DNA of 30,965 nucleotides, from IMG/VR virus record IMGVR_UViG_3300021425_000113, positions 1 through 30,965 of that record, one strand, 5' to 3'. Source of the stretch: a virus. The position numbers and the translations under genes were made by a program. The notes beneath the pieces are model-generated. The model saw only the letters and a program-made list of their open reading frames with translations, was not told the DNA's origin and ran no database searches. Of this stretch, positions 9,942-30,962 are shown piece by piece (position 1 is the first letter of the stretch; each line of letters begins with the position of its first letter).

Positions 9942-12674
9942 ATGAACAGATCTGTTATGAACCGTCAAATGTTTGCCAAGGGCGGACCGGTTAGATACAT
10001 GCAGCAGGGCGGTGTTGCGGCTCCTATGCCGATGGCGGCTCCTGCCCCGGCCCCTATGCCGATGGCACCTCCTCCTATGGCGGCACCTCCTCCTATGGAC
10101 CCGATGGCCGCGGCCCAAGAAGCAATTAATCCTGCGGAACTTGAGGGGATGTTAGCTCAAGCTTCTCAAACCATCGGTGATTTGGATCAGGCGGGAAGTT
10201 ACGAAGAAGTAATGAACATGATGCGCGGTGACGAGGCATCTGTTCAGGAGCGTCGTTCTGAGTTGGCTGGTCTGGTTGGGCCTGAAGACGCACAGCAAAC
10301 GCCTGAGTCTGTTTTGACTTTGGTTCAGCCTGTTATTCAAATGGCGTCGGTGGATCAAGGCATTGGCGGTCTGGCTCAAGAGCAGATGTCGGCTCCTGTT
10401 GAAGGAGACATGGCTGGCGGGATTATGTCTACAGTAGGAATGGGTGCTCCGGAGGGGCCGCCCCCTGTAAATTTTAATCAAGGCGGCGTAGTTCGCCGCC
10501 CGGGTCGATTTCCAGAAGTAATGCTACCGGATTTCACTTCGGTTATGGAGGCTCGACCATCGGGGTACCTCCCTCAAACGCCAATGTATCTTCTGCCTCC
10601 TCGGAGAATCCGCTTAGAAGACTTGGATCAACCTATTCCAGAGGCTATACGAGGCATGCCTCGGGACTACCGTGAAGAGGCTTCTTCGTACGAGCAGGAA
10701 ACGCTTGACGAGGGCGGAGCGCAGCTTCCGGACACGCAAGCGGCAATGGAGGGCACGGACCCTTCTTCAGAGTCTGCCGAACTGGCTACGGATACCGTTG
10801 ATCCGTTGGATAGCCTAATGTCTGAACTTGGCTACGGGGACGAAAGGTCTCTGGACGAGTACTTTCAGGAAAGCCGAGACTTATACAGAGGGTTAATCTC
10901 TGAAGCAGATCGGGAAGCCTCTAGATCCGACGTTAGAGAAGCTGCGAAAACTCAATTCCTTAGCGACTTAGGTAAGGCGGGTCTTCTTCTAGCTTCTCCC
11001 ACAGCTTCTCCAATGAGCTTCTTCGAGAAGCTTTCTGGAGCGGTTAGCGGAAGCGAAATGTTTGATAATTTGGCGAAGCAAGCCGCAGCAATTTCAGAGG
11101 CAGAGCGTGGGTTCCGCGATCAAGACCTTAAGCTGGACCTCGCCGCACTAACGGATGCTCAAAAACGATCCCTTGCGGACCAAGACGCTCGACGCGCATT
11201 GCAATTAAAGATGTTGGACGAAGGCGAAACGGATGCAAGCTTGTATTCTATATTTGGGCCGGATGGAAACCTTATTCAAACACGGGCTTACACGGATTCT
11301 GAGCTAAGAAATGTGACATCAAACCTAGGACCCGGATATACTATAAGGGAAACCGCAGAAGAAGATATTTCTGCGACGGGTGGTGGTTCTCAAGAACAAT
11401 ACTTTGTCGTAAATCCCGACACAAATAAGGTTGAACCCTTTGATTTTGGAGCCGGCCCGCAATCTAATATTTCTTTACAAGACGGTGCAGCTTACAACAA
11501 AGCGGCGGGCTTATTAGCTGGTTCCGGGCTTGTACTTGTAAGAGGCACTGACCTTAATCAATTTGGTCAGAGCGGTTCAGGTCGTAATCCAATCAACGTT
11601 CGAGACACTACAGGAGCTTACAATGACGGTGCTACTTTTTTAGTTGGCCCTTCTGAACTTAGTGAAATACAAACACAAAACCCCGGCTCTAATTTTGTTG
11701 TAACAGGATCTCAAGCTGGCGCTGTGACCGCCAACCTTCTTATCGAAGACAGTAGCGGGGCGCGGAGTATAGCGGCACAGGCAAACAATGGGTTGATTCT
11801 AAACGACGGCCTTATTCCGGGCGCTGGTGACTATGTTACAGTAAATCAATTGCAAGACGCCGGTTTTAGTAACATAACCTCGATTCCAGACACTGAAGTT
11901 ACAAAAATGCGTGAGGCGGTAGCGTATGGTAGGTACTTCCGTAGTCAGGCCGAAGGAAGGTACGACGAACCGACGTCAGAAATGCAAGATTATAGTAAGT
12001 CCCAAATTTCTGAGTTAAACGAAGACCCAATAAGCAACAGAGAGTATAATGCTCTCAGAAACCGAATAAATTTTGATATGAATCTGTGGTCGAGTGAGCA
12101 GAGCGAAGATCTTGTGGCAGCTACCCGAGACGTAACCGGTTTGGGTTCTGTGGTGGCAAGGGCTGTGGATAGCGCCTTGGGTATCGTTGGTTTCGGTTTT
12201 ACATCAAAATCCGTACAAGCAAAACAAACAGCTAAACTATTTAATAAAATGGTACTTCCGGGTCTTGTCACAAACACCTCTCGTGTAAGTAACTTTGACA
12301 TGGAACAAGTACAGCCGATACTGCTTGACGTTGGTGTATTTGGTTCCGACTCCACTCAGCTGGCAAAAATGGTTAGGTTGTACGATCTTCTTAAATACAA
12401 AGAAGCGGCTATTATTAATACGGGAATGCAAGAGTCTCGTTACGGCGGTCTTATGACTGCTCAACGGTTTAGAGACTTGCAGACTGACCTTTCTGCTGTT
12501 CGAAGTTCTTTAGCCTTCTTCGGCAACAACTTCCAACAAGAGGTTCTTCAACAGTTCCCTAATCTAAGCGACGAAATGCAAAGAAGTATTGTCAACAATG
12601 ACCCTGAGCGTCAGGGACTGTACAACGCTATCCGGCAGCAAGACGCGGCATTTCGTTCGGGGTCAAGCAACTAA
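9942..12674 (+). CDS. Large internal virion protein (gp15-like position), Pro/Met/Ala-rich N-terminus
   Basis: About 910 residues. I choose ATG 9942 over the in-frame GTG 9933, because AGGAG lies about 8 bases before the ATG and overlaps the GTG. Residues 20-55 are low-complexity P/M/A repeats from short DNA repeats (cctatgccgatggc). A conserved-looking patch follows, with ELAGLVGPEDAQQTPESV and IQMASVDQGIGGLAQEQM, a block I recognise from uncharacterised proteins of pelagic phages. The rest is largely helical and acidic, with no known enzyme motif. Size and order suggest the T7 gp15 counterpart, but no sequence signature proves it. Confidence 0.6.
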   Translation: MNRSVMNRQMFAKGGPVRYMQQGGVAAPMPMAAPAPAPMPMAPPPMAAPPPMDPMAAAQEAINPAELEGMLAQASQTIGDLDQAGSYEEVMNMMRGDEASVQERRSELAGLVGPEDAQQTPESVLTLVQPVIQMASVDQGIGGLAQEQMSAPVEGDMAGGIMSTVGMGAPEGPPPVNFNQGGVVRRPGRFPEVMLPDFTSVMEARPSGYLPQTPMYLLPPRRIRLEDLDQPIPEAIRGMPRDYREEASSYEQETLDEGGAQLPDTQAAMEGTDPSSESAELATDTVDPLDSLMSELGYGDERSLDEYFQESRDLYRGLISEADREASRSDVREAAKTQFLSDLGKAGLLLASPTASPMSFFEKLSGAVSGSEMFDNLAKQAAAISEAERGFRDQDLKLDLAALTDAQKRSLADQDARRALQLKMLDEGETDASLYSIFGPDGNLIQTRAYTDSELRNVTSNLGPGYTIRETAEEDISATGGGSQEQYFVVNPDTNKVEPFDFGAGPQSNISLQDGAAYNKAAGLLAGSGLVLVRGTDLNQFGQSGSGRNPINVRDTTGAYNDGATFLVGPSELSEIQTQNPGSNFVVTGSQAGAVTANLLIEDSSGARSIAAQANNGLILNDGLIPGAGDYVTVNQLQDAGFSNITSIPDTEVTKMREAVAYGRYFRSQAEGRYDEPTSEMQDYSKSQISELNEDPISNREYNALRNRINFDMNLWSSEQSEDLVAATRDVTGLGSVVARAVDSALGIVGFGFTSKSVQAKQTAKLFNKMVLPGLVTNTSRVSNFDMEQVQPILLDVGVFGSDSTQLAKMVRLYDLLKYKEAAIINTGMQESRYGGLMTAQRFRDLQTDLSAVRSSLAFFGNNFQQEVLQQFPNLSDEMQRSIVNNDPERQGLYNAIRQQDAAFRSGSSN

Positions 12675-28116: not shown

Positions 28117-28392
28117 TCATTTGGATAATATCTCGTTCAGTTCCTCGGACCAGTCTCGGTCTGGGTACTTTTCTAGAAATTTACGCACACCATGAATAAC
28201 CGTTGAATGATCCATGCCAAAAATCATGGCAATCTTTTTGTATGAATAGCCTCGCTCTCGAAGTAGGCACCAAACATGCCAGCGGGCTTCTACAAAGTTG
28301 CGTGTCCGACCGCCATTTAAAACATCTCGCTCGGACACAAGTCGCTTTTGGCATGTTTCCCTGACGATTTTACGTGCTAAGGAAGGCACCAT
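28117..28392 (-). CDS. Free-standing DnaA domain IV-like DNA-binding protein
   Basis: A 91-residue protein matching the C-terminal DnaA-box-binding domain. It has a helical N-terminus (LARKIVRETCQKRLVSERDV), then GGRTRNFVEARWHVWCLLRE, KKIAMIFG and MDHSTVIHGVRKF. The last is the DnaA signature (E. coli: RDHTTVLHACRKI). The AAA+ ATPase and domain I are absent. It could mark the phage origin, compete with host DnaA for DnaA boxes, or act as a repressor. It is coupled to the XRE gene by TAATG (stop and start share one base). Confidence 0.85.
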   Translation of the reverse strand: MVPSLARKIVRETCQKRLVSERDVLNGGRTRNFVEARWHVWCLLRERGYSYKKIAMIFGMDHSTVIHGVRKFLEKYPDRDWSEELNEILSK

Positions 28393-28586
28393 TAAGCACT
28401 AACTCCGGAAACAAGCTCCTTCAGATTAAGATCTGGTAACAATTCAGTCAGCCGGACAGCTGTATTAAGTGAGGGTTTGTGCTGGCCGTTTTCAATGCCG
28501 CAAATGTGCGCCGGAGTACAGCCCAGAAGCTTTGCCAGCTGGACTTGTGTGTAATTAGAGGCCTTACGTGCTTCTCTTAAGTTCAT
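28392..28586 (-). CDS. XRE-family helix-turn-helix regulator
   Basis: A 64-residue protein with the full lambda-repressor-like HTH: NLREARKASNYTQVQLAKLL, CTPAHICGIENGQHKPS, then AVRLTELLP. ATG 28586 is preferred because AAGGA lies 8 bases upstream; the in-frame ATG at 28610 lacks a ribosome site. No dimerisation or cleavage domain follows, so it is a Cro-like minimal repressor. It is coupled to the DnaA-like gene. The nearby dyads at 30811-30829 and 30857-30872 are possible operators, not proven. Confidence 0.88.
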   Translation of the reverse strand: MNLREARKASNYTQVQLAKLLGCTPAHICGIENGQHKPSLNTAVRLTELLPDLNLKELVSGVSA

Positions 28587-28710
28587 TTTGATGTTCCTTA
28601 CATTTTCCATTTTTAAAAACAGGGTTACCACAGGCAACCGATCTATCCCCTACCAAGAGGGTAGCGTGACAACGGCGAAACACTAATCGCCGCTGCCGTC
28701 GGTGTTTCAT
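28564..28710 (-). CDS. 48-residue putative zinc-knuckle protein
   Basis: Starts at ATG 28710, 8 bases after the preceding gene's stop, and ends inside the XRE gene (23-base overlap in another frame). The N-terminus is highly basic (MKHRRQRRLVFRR). A Cys/His series follows: C-H at 14-15, then ACGNPVFKNGKCKEHQ, of the form C-G-x-P-V-x6-C-x2-H seen in short zinc fingers of phage nuclease-type proteins. The ribosome site is weak (GAAGA). It fills what would otherwise be a gap in a densely packed operon. A DNA- or RNA-binding role is inferred from charge. Confidence 0.45.
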   Translation of the reverse strand: MKHRRQRRLVFRRCHATLLVGDRSVACGNPVFKNGKCKEHQNELKRST

Positions 28711-28727
28711 ACGGATCTTCATCCGTA
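28710..28727 (-). repeat. Perfect inverted repeat across a stop/start junction
   Basis: TACGGAT (28710-28716), a CTTC loop and ATCCGTA (28721-28727) form a 7-bp hairpin that includes the stop of the 126-residue gene and touches the start of the 48-residue gene. No T-run follows on either strand, so an RNA processing site, translation-coupling hairpin or operator is more likely than a terminator. Confidence 0.55.
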
Positions 28728-30167: not shown

Positions 30168-30353
30168 TTAGCAAGCAAGGACGCTTTCAACACAGCCTTT
30201 CAGCCTTGCTTTGGTGCAGTAGTCAGCATCTCCGATTTGGTCGGCTTCATCGTTTGGTGAGGTCACTTGGTAGACAGTCCAGAGCTGGATTGATGGATCG
30301 TAGTAATACCTCGCCCATTGGCCCTGACCGTTATGCTGATAATACGTTGTCAT
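30168..30353 (-). CDS. Hypothetical 61-residue protein, Tyr/Gln-rich
   Basis: I choose ATG 30353, with AGGAG 9 bases upstream in the leader shared by two other genes; an in-frame ATG at 30371 lies in front of that site. The protein begins MTTYYQHNGQGQWARYYYDP with many Tyr/Gln, then a beta pattern (IQLWTVYQVTS), an acidic turn (NDEADQIGDAD) and a C-terminal helix ending ESVLAC. Cys at 46, 54 and 61 could bind metal. No family recognised. The gene has its own promoter-like module and a hairpin after its stop, suggesting a separate mRNA. Confidence 0.6.
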   Translation of the reverse strand: MTTYYQHNGQGQWARYYYDPSIQLWTVYQVTSPNDEADQIGDADYCTKARLKGCVESVLAC

Positions 30354-30407
30354 GTGTTTTTCTCCTTTCAATAAGTGATACTATCATATGAAGTGCTGCT
30401 TGTAAAC
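30354..30407 (-). promoter_or_regulatory. Promoter-leader module A
   Basis: On the - strand GTTTACAAG is followed by CACTTCATATGATAGTATC and ends in AAAGGAGAAAAACAC before ATG 30353. The element matches the + strand module C (GTTTACAAG, CACTTAATATGCTAG). TTTACA and TAGTAT are spaced 17 bases, a workable sigma70 pair. A palindrome TGATA-C-TATCA overlaps the -10 region and could be an operator. Confidence 0.55.
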
Positions 30408-30417
30408 CAGGAGAGGT

Positions 30418-30440
30418 GGGGCGACCGAGGCCGCCCCTGT
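30418..30440 (-). repeat. Intergenic hairpin repeat, copy 2
   Basis: Identical over 23 bases to 30137-30159, with arms GGGGCG and CGCCCC. It lies 4 bases after the stop of the gene at 30445-30756 and just upstream of promoter module A. The repeated gene-hairpin pattern suggests a deliberate mRNA 3' end or boundary element. Confidence 0.75.
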
Positions 30441-30444
30441 AATG

Positions 30445-30756
30445 TTATCTAAGGTGCCACTTTAGCCACTCGTCAGATTGAAGCTCGGCGACGTGCCGAG
30501 CAACCAGATCTTCAACAGGCCGAGTCTGCACATTTGCTCGAAAACCAATAAAGGGCTGGATCTCTTTAATCGTCAACGCCGGCTGCAACCGGGCCGCTGA
30601 CATGATAGTAGAGCGCAAGAAAAATTCCGCCAGAGACTGTTCTGTAATCTCGGCTTGGCCGAGGTGGTAGCACAGGCTGGCCATCTCATTTAACCGAGCT
30701 TCGCCAAGGGCTTCTACTTTACTCGCACACATAGCATCAGTGTTGTATGAAAACAT
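30445..30756 (-). CDS. Hypothetical 103-residue helical protein
   Basis: First gene of the - strand cluster, with AGGAG 8 bases before ATG 30756 in leader module B. It is mostly helical: ASKVEALGEARLNEMASLCY, EQSLAEFFLRSTIMSAARL, PVEDLVARHVAELQSDEWL, ending KWHLR. Two cysteines (about 10 and 29), no membrane span, no known motif. Its place directly at a divergent promoter makes it a candidate immediate-early gene product acting on the host. The function is unknown. Confidence 0.6.
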   Translation of the reverse strand: MFSYNTDAMCASKVEALGEARLNEMASLCYHLGQAEITEQSLAEFFLRSTIMSAARLQPALTIKEIQPFIGFRANVQTRPVEDLVARHVAELQSDEWLKWHLR

Positions 30757-30829
30757 TGTCTTTTCTCCTAATTGTCAAACAACTGTCGATCTCTGCCGAC
30801 TCCTATATATTAGCATATAAGTGATGCTT
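30757..30829 (-). promoter_or_regulatory. Promoter-leader module B with dyad operator
   Basis: On the - strand CACTTATATGCTA is followed by TATAGG, CAGTTGTTTGACAATTAGG and AGAAAAGACA before ATG 30756. Nearly the same series occurs in module C on the opposite strand. The upstream part AGCAT-N7-ATGCT (within 30811-30829) is an inverted repeat that could bind a dimeric regulator such as the XRE protein. Confidence 0.6.
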
Positions 30830-30856
30830 ATACTACCCCTATTTCGTCATAGCTGA

Positions 30857-30872
30857 TATGCAAAAATGCATA
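30857..30872. promoter_or_regulatory. Palindromic site between divergent promoters
   Basis: TATGCA (30857-30862), AAAA and TGCATA (30867-30872) form a perfect 6-bp dyad midway between modules B and C. Its location and symmetry fit an operator controlling both divergent promoters. It is too short and AT-rich for a terminator. Confidence 0.45.
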
Positions 30873-30881
30873 ACTAACCCT

Positions 30882-30962
30882 GTTTACAAGTCCCACTTAA
30901 TATGCTAGCCTGTATAGGTCAGCAAAAAACTGGCAGTTGTTTGAAAATTAGGAGAAAAACAC
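30882..30962 (+). promoter_or_regulatory. Promoter-leader module C
   Basis: GTTTACAAG (30882-30890), CACTTAATATGCTAG, TATAGG, GCAGTTGTTTGAAAATTAGG and AGAAAAACAC lead into ATG 30963. It is a diverged copy of module B (inverted) and shares its first part with module A. TTTACA and TAGCCT are 17 bases apart; a TATGCT box is also possible. Confidence 0.6.

Follow-up and report, generated by a model that had tools for sequence, protein, structure and literature searches.

The window analyzed here, a linear IMG/VR phage fragment of 30,965 bases whose last letters are the ATG of module C, ends in a set of related promoter regions, two of which diverge. The question raised by this locus is what function the repeated sequence between promoter and gene may have. 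The initial annotation described three copies of a promoter-leader module, A and B on the minus strand and C on the plus strand, and suggested a common regulator or a leader RNA function. The repetition is real. In the repeat search of the window, the B and C leaders form a 25-nt inverted repeat of 96% identity (30761-30785/30934-30958), the A and C promoters form a 27-nt repeat of 81% identity (30381-30407/30882-30908), and the A and C RBS-ATG segments are identical over 16 nt (30351-30366/30950-30965). Best ungapped alignment scores, judged against 1000 shuffles that preserved dinucleotides, exceed chance for B-C (22, shuffled maximum 12) and A-C (16, shuffled maximum 13), but the A-B pair by itself is not significant, its score of 9 being attained in 55 of the 1000 shuffles. 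The modules consist of the following elements.

30351..30366, minus strand: RBS and start of module A, AGGAGAAAAACACATG, the same sequence as in module C (repeat search)
30378..30406, minus strand: module A promoter, with -35 TTTACA (30406-30401), a 17-nt spacer, and TGA-TAGTAT (30386-30378) (promoter scan)
30401-30391, minus strand: module A AAG-N5-CTT, arms kept in the related records L003, L006, and L007
30754..30769, minus strand: module B SD (AGGAG) and ATG of a 103-aa gene
30773..30783, minus strand: module B boxA-like element GTTGTTTGACA
30785..30800, minus strand: module B leader hairpin GTCGGCAGAGATCGAC (scans, composite search)
30807..30829, minus strand: module B promoter, extended -10 TGC-TAATAT (30815-30807) (sequence, alignment with relatives)
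30829-30819, minus strand: module B AAG-N5-CTT (sequence, alignment with relatives)
30857..30872, no strand: TATGCA-N4-TGCATA, inverted repeat between B and C, candidate operator
30883..30911, plus strand: module C promoter, with -35 TTTACA (30883-30888), a 17-nt spacer, and TGC-TAGCCT (30903-30911) (sequence)
30888-30898, plus strand: module C AAG-N5-CTT (sequence)
30918..30934, plus strand: module C leader hairpin GTCAGCAAAAAACTGGC (scans, composite search)
30936..30946, plus strand: module C boxA-like element GTTGTTTGAAA
30950..30965, plus strand: RBS and start of module C, AGGAGAAAAACACATG, at whose ATG the record terminates

After the promoter, B and C contain in the same order a 5-pair hairpin, one A, GTTGTTTGAMA, AGGAG, and ATG, with 3 nt between the boxA-like element and the SD. 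Conservation does extend past the -10 and -35 regions into the 5' leader, as initially noticed, B and C having promoter, leader, and RBS in common. The order of elements is identical in the two modules, but the spacing, described as the same, is not: CACTTA and TATAGG are separated by 16 nt in B and 19 nt in C, and the distance from TATAGG to CAGTTGTTTGA differs by 1. These two hexamers are not invariant either, L006 and L007 having GACTTA in B and TAAAGG in C. The constant features in the alignment of the window lineage are AAG-N5-CTT, the hairpin position, and GTTGTTTGA; in the B hairpin of L006 and L007, which reads GTCGATGGAGATCGAC, the stem is kept. Module A shares the promoter and the RBS but not the leader element, its promoter running directly to AGGAG and ATG. 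A second copy of its RBS/start sequence is present in L006.

All three modules contain TGnTA, with TGn before the predicted -10, as in extended -10 sigma70 promoters; a clear -35 is absent from B. In the window, L003, L006, and L007, the arms of AAG-N5-CTT and TATGCA-N4-TGCATA are invariant and changes are confined to the centres, as in TATGCA-N4-TGCATA of L006 and L007. Because the changes are so few, this pattern is at most suggestive of operators. AAG-N5-CTT, located in the spacers of all three modules, may tentatively be regarded as a common operator, and to this modest extent the proposed common regulator gains in plausibility.

The initial annotation also proposed a genome-wide scan for the composite motif. 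Promoter and leader patterns, with mismatches tolerated, revealed no fourth copy in the 30,965-base window, and the idea of a phage-wide family fails there; copies are found in relatives. The composite of hairpin, boxA-like element, SD, and start matched two places in the window, B and C, and none of 300 shuffles. Over the viral loci searched, it identified 32 distinct sites compared with 0 in the reversed control, this being a looser pattern with features taken mainly from relatives, but chosen after B and C were known. In relatives, the leader-core search revealed the layout hairpin 1, hairpin 2 (loop GGGCAA), GCTCTTTGACAATTTAATCAACTACGGAGG, and ATG upstream of TerS, with the boxA-like consensus G(C/T)TNTTT(G/A)AMA. 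An alignment of 14 such leaders, all from outside the window lineage, has 91.8% of cells paired. Double-sided changes occur in 10 of 14 pairs, a level matched by none of 500 shuffles, and the covariation is lost when the partner is slid. The promoter family likewise holds in relatives: directly upstream of 25 of 31 distinct leaders lies an extended -10, separated by 17 nt from a -35 that resembles TTGACA.

The covariance model R1, built from the 14 leaders, has 38 matches at E <=1e-3 over 158 loci, all 38 on the pol/TerS strand; 14 of the 38 are rows of the model itself, and some loci come from the same contig as another locus. R1, a two-hairpin model, misses B and C (best E 4.8, in L007), because each of them has one hairpin, and a single covariance model covering both leader forms was ruled out by this failure in the window lineage. 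The link is provided by other features. Module C has the same position and direction relative to TerS as the family leader, and the promoter layout also agrees. In L003, module C is followed by a gene with homologues behind a family leader in L109 and behind a partial leader copy in L107 (38-39% identity), and the L003 and L109 first genes both match phrog_15581. Like the window, L116 contains a divergent pair of hairpin and boxA-like leaders. This resemblance to leaders that combine a boxA-like element with covarying hairpins supports the leader RNA function suggested at the outset.

The family is patchily distributed. Among 46 distinct contigs with the whole pol-TerS interval, the leader reaches the threshold in only 17; some 7 more have a weaker hairpin and a boxA-like element on inspection, and the remainder have none. 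It is absent from the examined regions of 4 cultured relatives (0/4), and when one leader was compared by blastn with 50,697 phage records, the matches, found in 8 of them, were all short and weak. L091 was rejected as a carrier: it matches the promoter pattern without a boxA-like element. None of the window, L107, L050, L017, L099, and L041 matches a known Rfam family at gathering scores.

The nearest polymerases are those of DSL-LC04 (57.6%), 023Pt_psg01 (53.8%), HTVC023P (51.0%), and HTVC027P (48.3%), which rules out an HMO-2011-type phage. GANTC and GcrA are tied to CcrM and Alphaproteobacteria. GANTC is strongly avoided in the window (40 sites vs 115 expected). The ratio of observed to expected sites is 0.14-0.45 for the window together with 12 of 13 relatives, 0.83 for the remaining relative, L102, and 0.77-1.06 for the four nearest cultured phages. 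Such avoidance would fit a host in the Alphaproteobacteria, or else a defence that cuts GANTC. Because relatives also contain a GcrA-like gene (Pfam, 3.4e-7), the host is probably an alphaproteobacterium. In L007, this gene (9949-10212, minus strand) is the first of the rightward unit. One GAGTC lies at the start of the module B hairpin (30797-30801).

The resemblance to boxA, which was not part of the initial annotation, is closest in L050, whose element GCTCTTTAACA is identical over 16 bases to the boxA of E. coli rrnH (GCTCTTTAACAATTTA, 143 bases before 16S). The gammaproteobacterial consensus given in PMC5725501 is GYTCTTTAANA, with C4 and A8 fixed. L050 matches it; GTTGTTTGACA and GTTGTTTGAAA of the window, with G rather than C at position 4, depart from it at positions 4 and 8. 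C4 mutants lost function in E. coli. Of the 31 16S leaders examined from Alphaproteobacteria, 7 contain GYTNTTTGACA (reverse strand 0/31), and a looser motif occurs in 12, with 4 reverse-strand matches. Position 4 is not fixed in these leaders, because GCTC-, GCTG-, GTTC-, and GTTA- forms all occur. Since GCTG-, GTTC-, and GTTATTTGACA are used in alphaproteobacterial rRNA leaders, the window form falls within their range, although the exact GTTG combination is absent among the 31. This 16S-anchored test took the place of a genome-contig scan with GCTCTTTGACAATTTAAT, which is weak evidence because only 3 of its 48 matches precede a 16S start. In Bdellovibrio-type genomes, exact GCTCTTTGACAATTTAAT is followed directly by apparent gene starts rather than by 16S (L175, L181, L186, L188, L189, L194, L196, L201, L205, L207, L208, and L212); these sites may be boxA leaders that belong to genes of the host or of a prophage.

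The genes and hairpins behind the leftward modules are as follows.

30445..30756, minus strand: 103-aa gene, first behind module B; a different, 91-aa gene in L006
30418..30437, minus strand: GC hairpin between the 103-aa gene and module A, immediately before the latter (repeat search)
30168..30353, minus strand: 61-aa gene behind module A; homologue behind module C in L006
30136..30157, minus strand: GC hairpin after the 61-aa gene, terminator-like (repeat search)
28392-28637, minus strand: XRE regulator, end of the leftward unit (Pfam)
28117-28392, minus strand: DnaA domain-IV protein, end of the leftward unit (Pfam)

Module B thus starts a leftward unit of small genes, the XRE regulator, and the DnaA domain-IV protein. 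The XRE/DnaA-IV unit is found in the window, L003, L007, and L009; L006 stops short of it. Module C is directed toward terminase and structural genes: in relatives, the rightward unit behind it contains GcrA-like, Zn-ribbon-like, and terminase small-subunit-like genes (the last at 2.7e-5, slightly below the Pfam cut-off) and later the terminase large subunit. Most of the other relatives have pol, the RHH gene, and TerS all on one strand.

In the scenario that we consider moderately probable, B and C are a divergent pair of sigma70-type promoters; their leaders would recruit Nus factors of the host, as in nut/rrn-like antitermination, and act as exchange slots for small genes. Host sigma70-type RNA polymerase would use the two extended -10 promoters, with candidate operators in the promoter spacers and between B and C. 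Each RNA would begin a few bases before the hairpin and boxA-like sequence, the SD and a small first gene coming next. Like rRNA leaders or lambda nut, the leader would put Nus factors (NusB/S10 and partners) on the polymerase, which would then pass the GC hairpins and Rho sites of the long downstream units, to XRE and DnaA-IV from B and to the terminase and structural genes from C. Module A would be a local promoter past the first GC hairpin, without a leader. Antitermination appears the most likely function because the elements have the rrn-like order and position and open long phage units that contain GC hairpins of their own. In rrn leaders, boxB-boxA-boxC stands right behind the promoter and boxA is enough to recruit the complex (PMC10250234); in B, C, and the relatives, a boxB-like hairpin adjoins the putative boxA close to the predicted promoter. 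Several observations speak against this scenario: the G at position 4 of the window element, the failure of R1 to find B or C, the patchy distribution of the leader, the lack of a recognised N-like protein, and the hairpin energies, which are unremarkable in the window (B, z -1.2; C, z -0.07), only that of L006 module B standing out (z -3.0).

Another explanation, which we consider unlikely, is boxA-mediated translational control, in which Nus factors bound next to the SD would repress the first gene and have no read-through role. The 3-nt distance to the SD in B and C is compatible with it: in suhB, BoxA is 6 nt from the SD and represses translation (PMC5725501). In relatives this distance is about 13 nt or more, and the leaders precede long units rather than a Nus-factor gene. 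Control of the suhB type and antitermination could coexist.

The hairpins could also act as a transcription attenuator, terminating some transcripts together with the T-rich stretch. Both hairpins (30800-30785 in B, 30918-30934 in C) are among the 12 sites that a terminator scan flags in the stretch, where 3.2 would be expected. Their stems, however, are limited to 5 pairs and their T run is broken; the hairpin of the relatives precedes ACGCTCTTTGACAA, which makes a poor U tract, and in the alignments the conserved part is the sequence after the hairpin. Attenuation is very improbable and the weakest of the rivals.

The second part of the scenario, gene exchange, was likewise not anticipated by the initial annotation. 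The genes behind like leaders differ. Slot B contains a 103-aa gene in the window, L003, and L007 and a 91-aa gene in L006; slot A, 61 aa in the window and L003 and 128 aa in L006 and L007; slot C, 97 aa in L003, 62 aa in L006 (the homologue of the window A gene), and the GcrA-like gene in L007. An extra gene with its hairpin in L006 is flanked by two copies of AGGAGAAAAACACATGACAAC, present once in L007, the product expected if recombination occurred at the RBS/start joint. L107 and L109 are a second case of this kind of insertion: they differ by a single gene, which is flanked by two copies of the 3' part of the leader. The first gene is readable behind 28 of the 31 distinct leaders, and these genes, all small, fall into 8 mutually unrelated families (BLASTP, 1e-4). 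For 5 of these families, each represented by one member, no Pfam comparison gives an E value below 0.11, and the PHROGs matched have no known function. Thus, small-gene exchange behind the modules is well supported by sequence comparison. In the proposed mechanism, the constant promoter, leader, and RBS, as well as the GC hairpins, would double as short recombination joints, so that small accessory genes would be exchanged behind a constant control region.

Such joints also suggest a simpler origin, duplication of promoter and RBS alone, in which the repeats would be only recombination joints and common promoters (PeSL-like) and the leader would have no RNA function. The RBS/start joint flanking the gene inserted in L006 vs L007 and the GC hairpins after exchanged genes agree with this. 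The covarying hairpins and boxA-like element of the relatives exceed the needs of a joint, and the C leader is almost unchanged over four records (window, L003, L006, and L007), which makes duplication alone improbable.

Compared with known systems, the parts are of known kinds, nut/rrn-type leaders and PeSL-type cassettes. With rRNA-operon antitermination leaders (boxB-boxA-boxC; rrnTAC), the phage leaders share a hairpin followed by a boxA-like element just past the promoter, the 16-base identity of L050 with rrnH, and variants in common with alphaproteobacterial rRNA leaders. They differ in preceding protein genes, with the SD adjoining the element, in having no recognised boxC, and, in the window, in the departure at position 4 from the gammaproteobacterial consensus. 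In lambda nut sites the order is boxA, then boxB; in the window the hairpin precedes the boxA-like element. The likeness to lambda-type nutL/nutR lies in divergent phage promoters, each with a boxA-like element and a hairpin (also mEp021, PMC11893012). As in the suhB 5' UTR, BoxA adjoins the SD of an mRNA, but suhB (PMC5725501) is a single cellular gene without exchange; here there are phage units, hairpins, and a strong promoter family. PeSL cassettes (Arbiol 2010 and Comeau 2014, as cited in PMC4503421) are mobile regulatory elements of T4-type phages, with a promoter and stem-loop flanking exchanged genes. A conserved promoter and stem-loop beside exchanged small genes are found here as well, but the module also includes the boxA-like leader and the phage is not T4-type. 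PMC4503421 describes dense cassettes in a shuffled region of a T4-type phage, compared with three modules in the window and one or two leaders in relatives, and the modules are not classed here as PeSL cassettes.

A broader and rather doubtful extension is that a group of uncultivated marine phages uses an rRNA-type antitermination leader, with one or two hairpins and an alphaproteobacterial-type boxA, as a portable slot, the window having a divergent pair like lambda nutL/nutR and possibly an N-like partner at 28564-28722. Any small gene recombined into such a slot would ride a Nus-modified, Rho-resistant polymerase. No N-like protein was recognised nearby by Pfam or PHROG. The 52-aa ORF at 28564-28722 (minus strand), without a Pfam or PHROG match, has an arginine-rich N-terminus (MKIRMKHRRQRRLVFRRC), overlaps the XRE gene, and is kept in L003, L007, and L009.

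In the open-access literature searched, boxA leaders do not appear to have been described for these phages, nor does the combination of such a leader with a PeSL-type cassette in one exchangeable slot in this phage group, or the divergent pair; in PMC9599517, the words promoter, boxA, terminator, antitermination, leader, and siphovirus do not occur. The proposed function would widen Nus-factor antitermination to a group of uncultivated marine phages with probable alphaproteobacterial hosts and would explain the continual swapping of small genes of unknown function while the control region stays constant. The leaders mark places where accessory genes may be sought, and their naturally varying position 4, which is C, G, A, or T, would allow tests of which boxA forms NusB/S10 accept.

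A homologue of the window A gene also occurs within a small-gene array of an unrelated 53.6-kb record (L172, 5300-6620), where each gene stands behind a repeated unit of terminator, TTGACA, inverted repeat (TTACGA-GTAG-TCGTAA), and RBS; this record contains 0 GANTC sites vs 51 expected.
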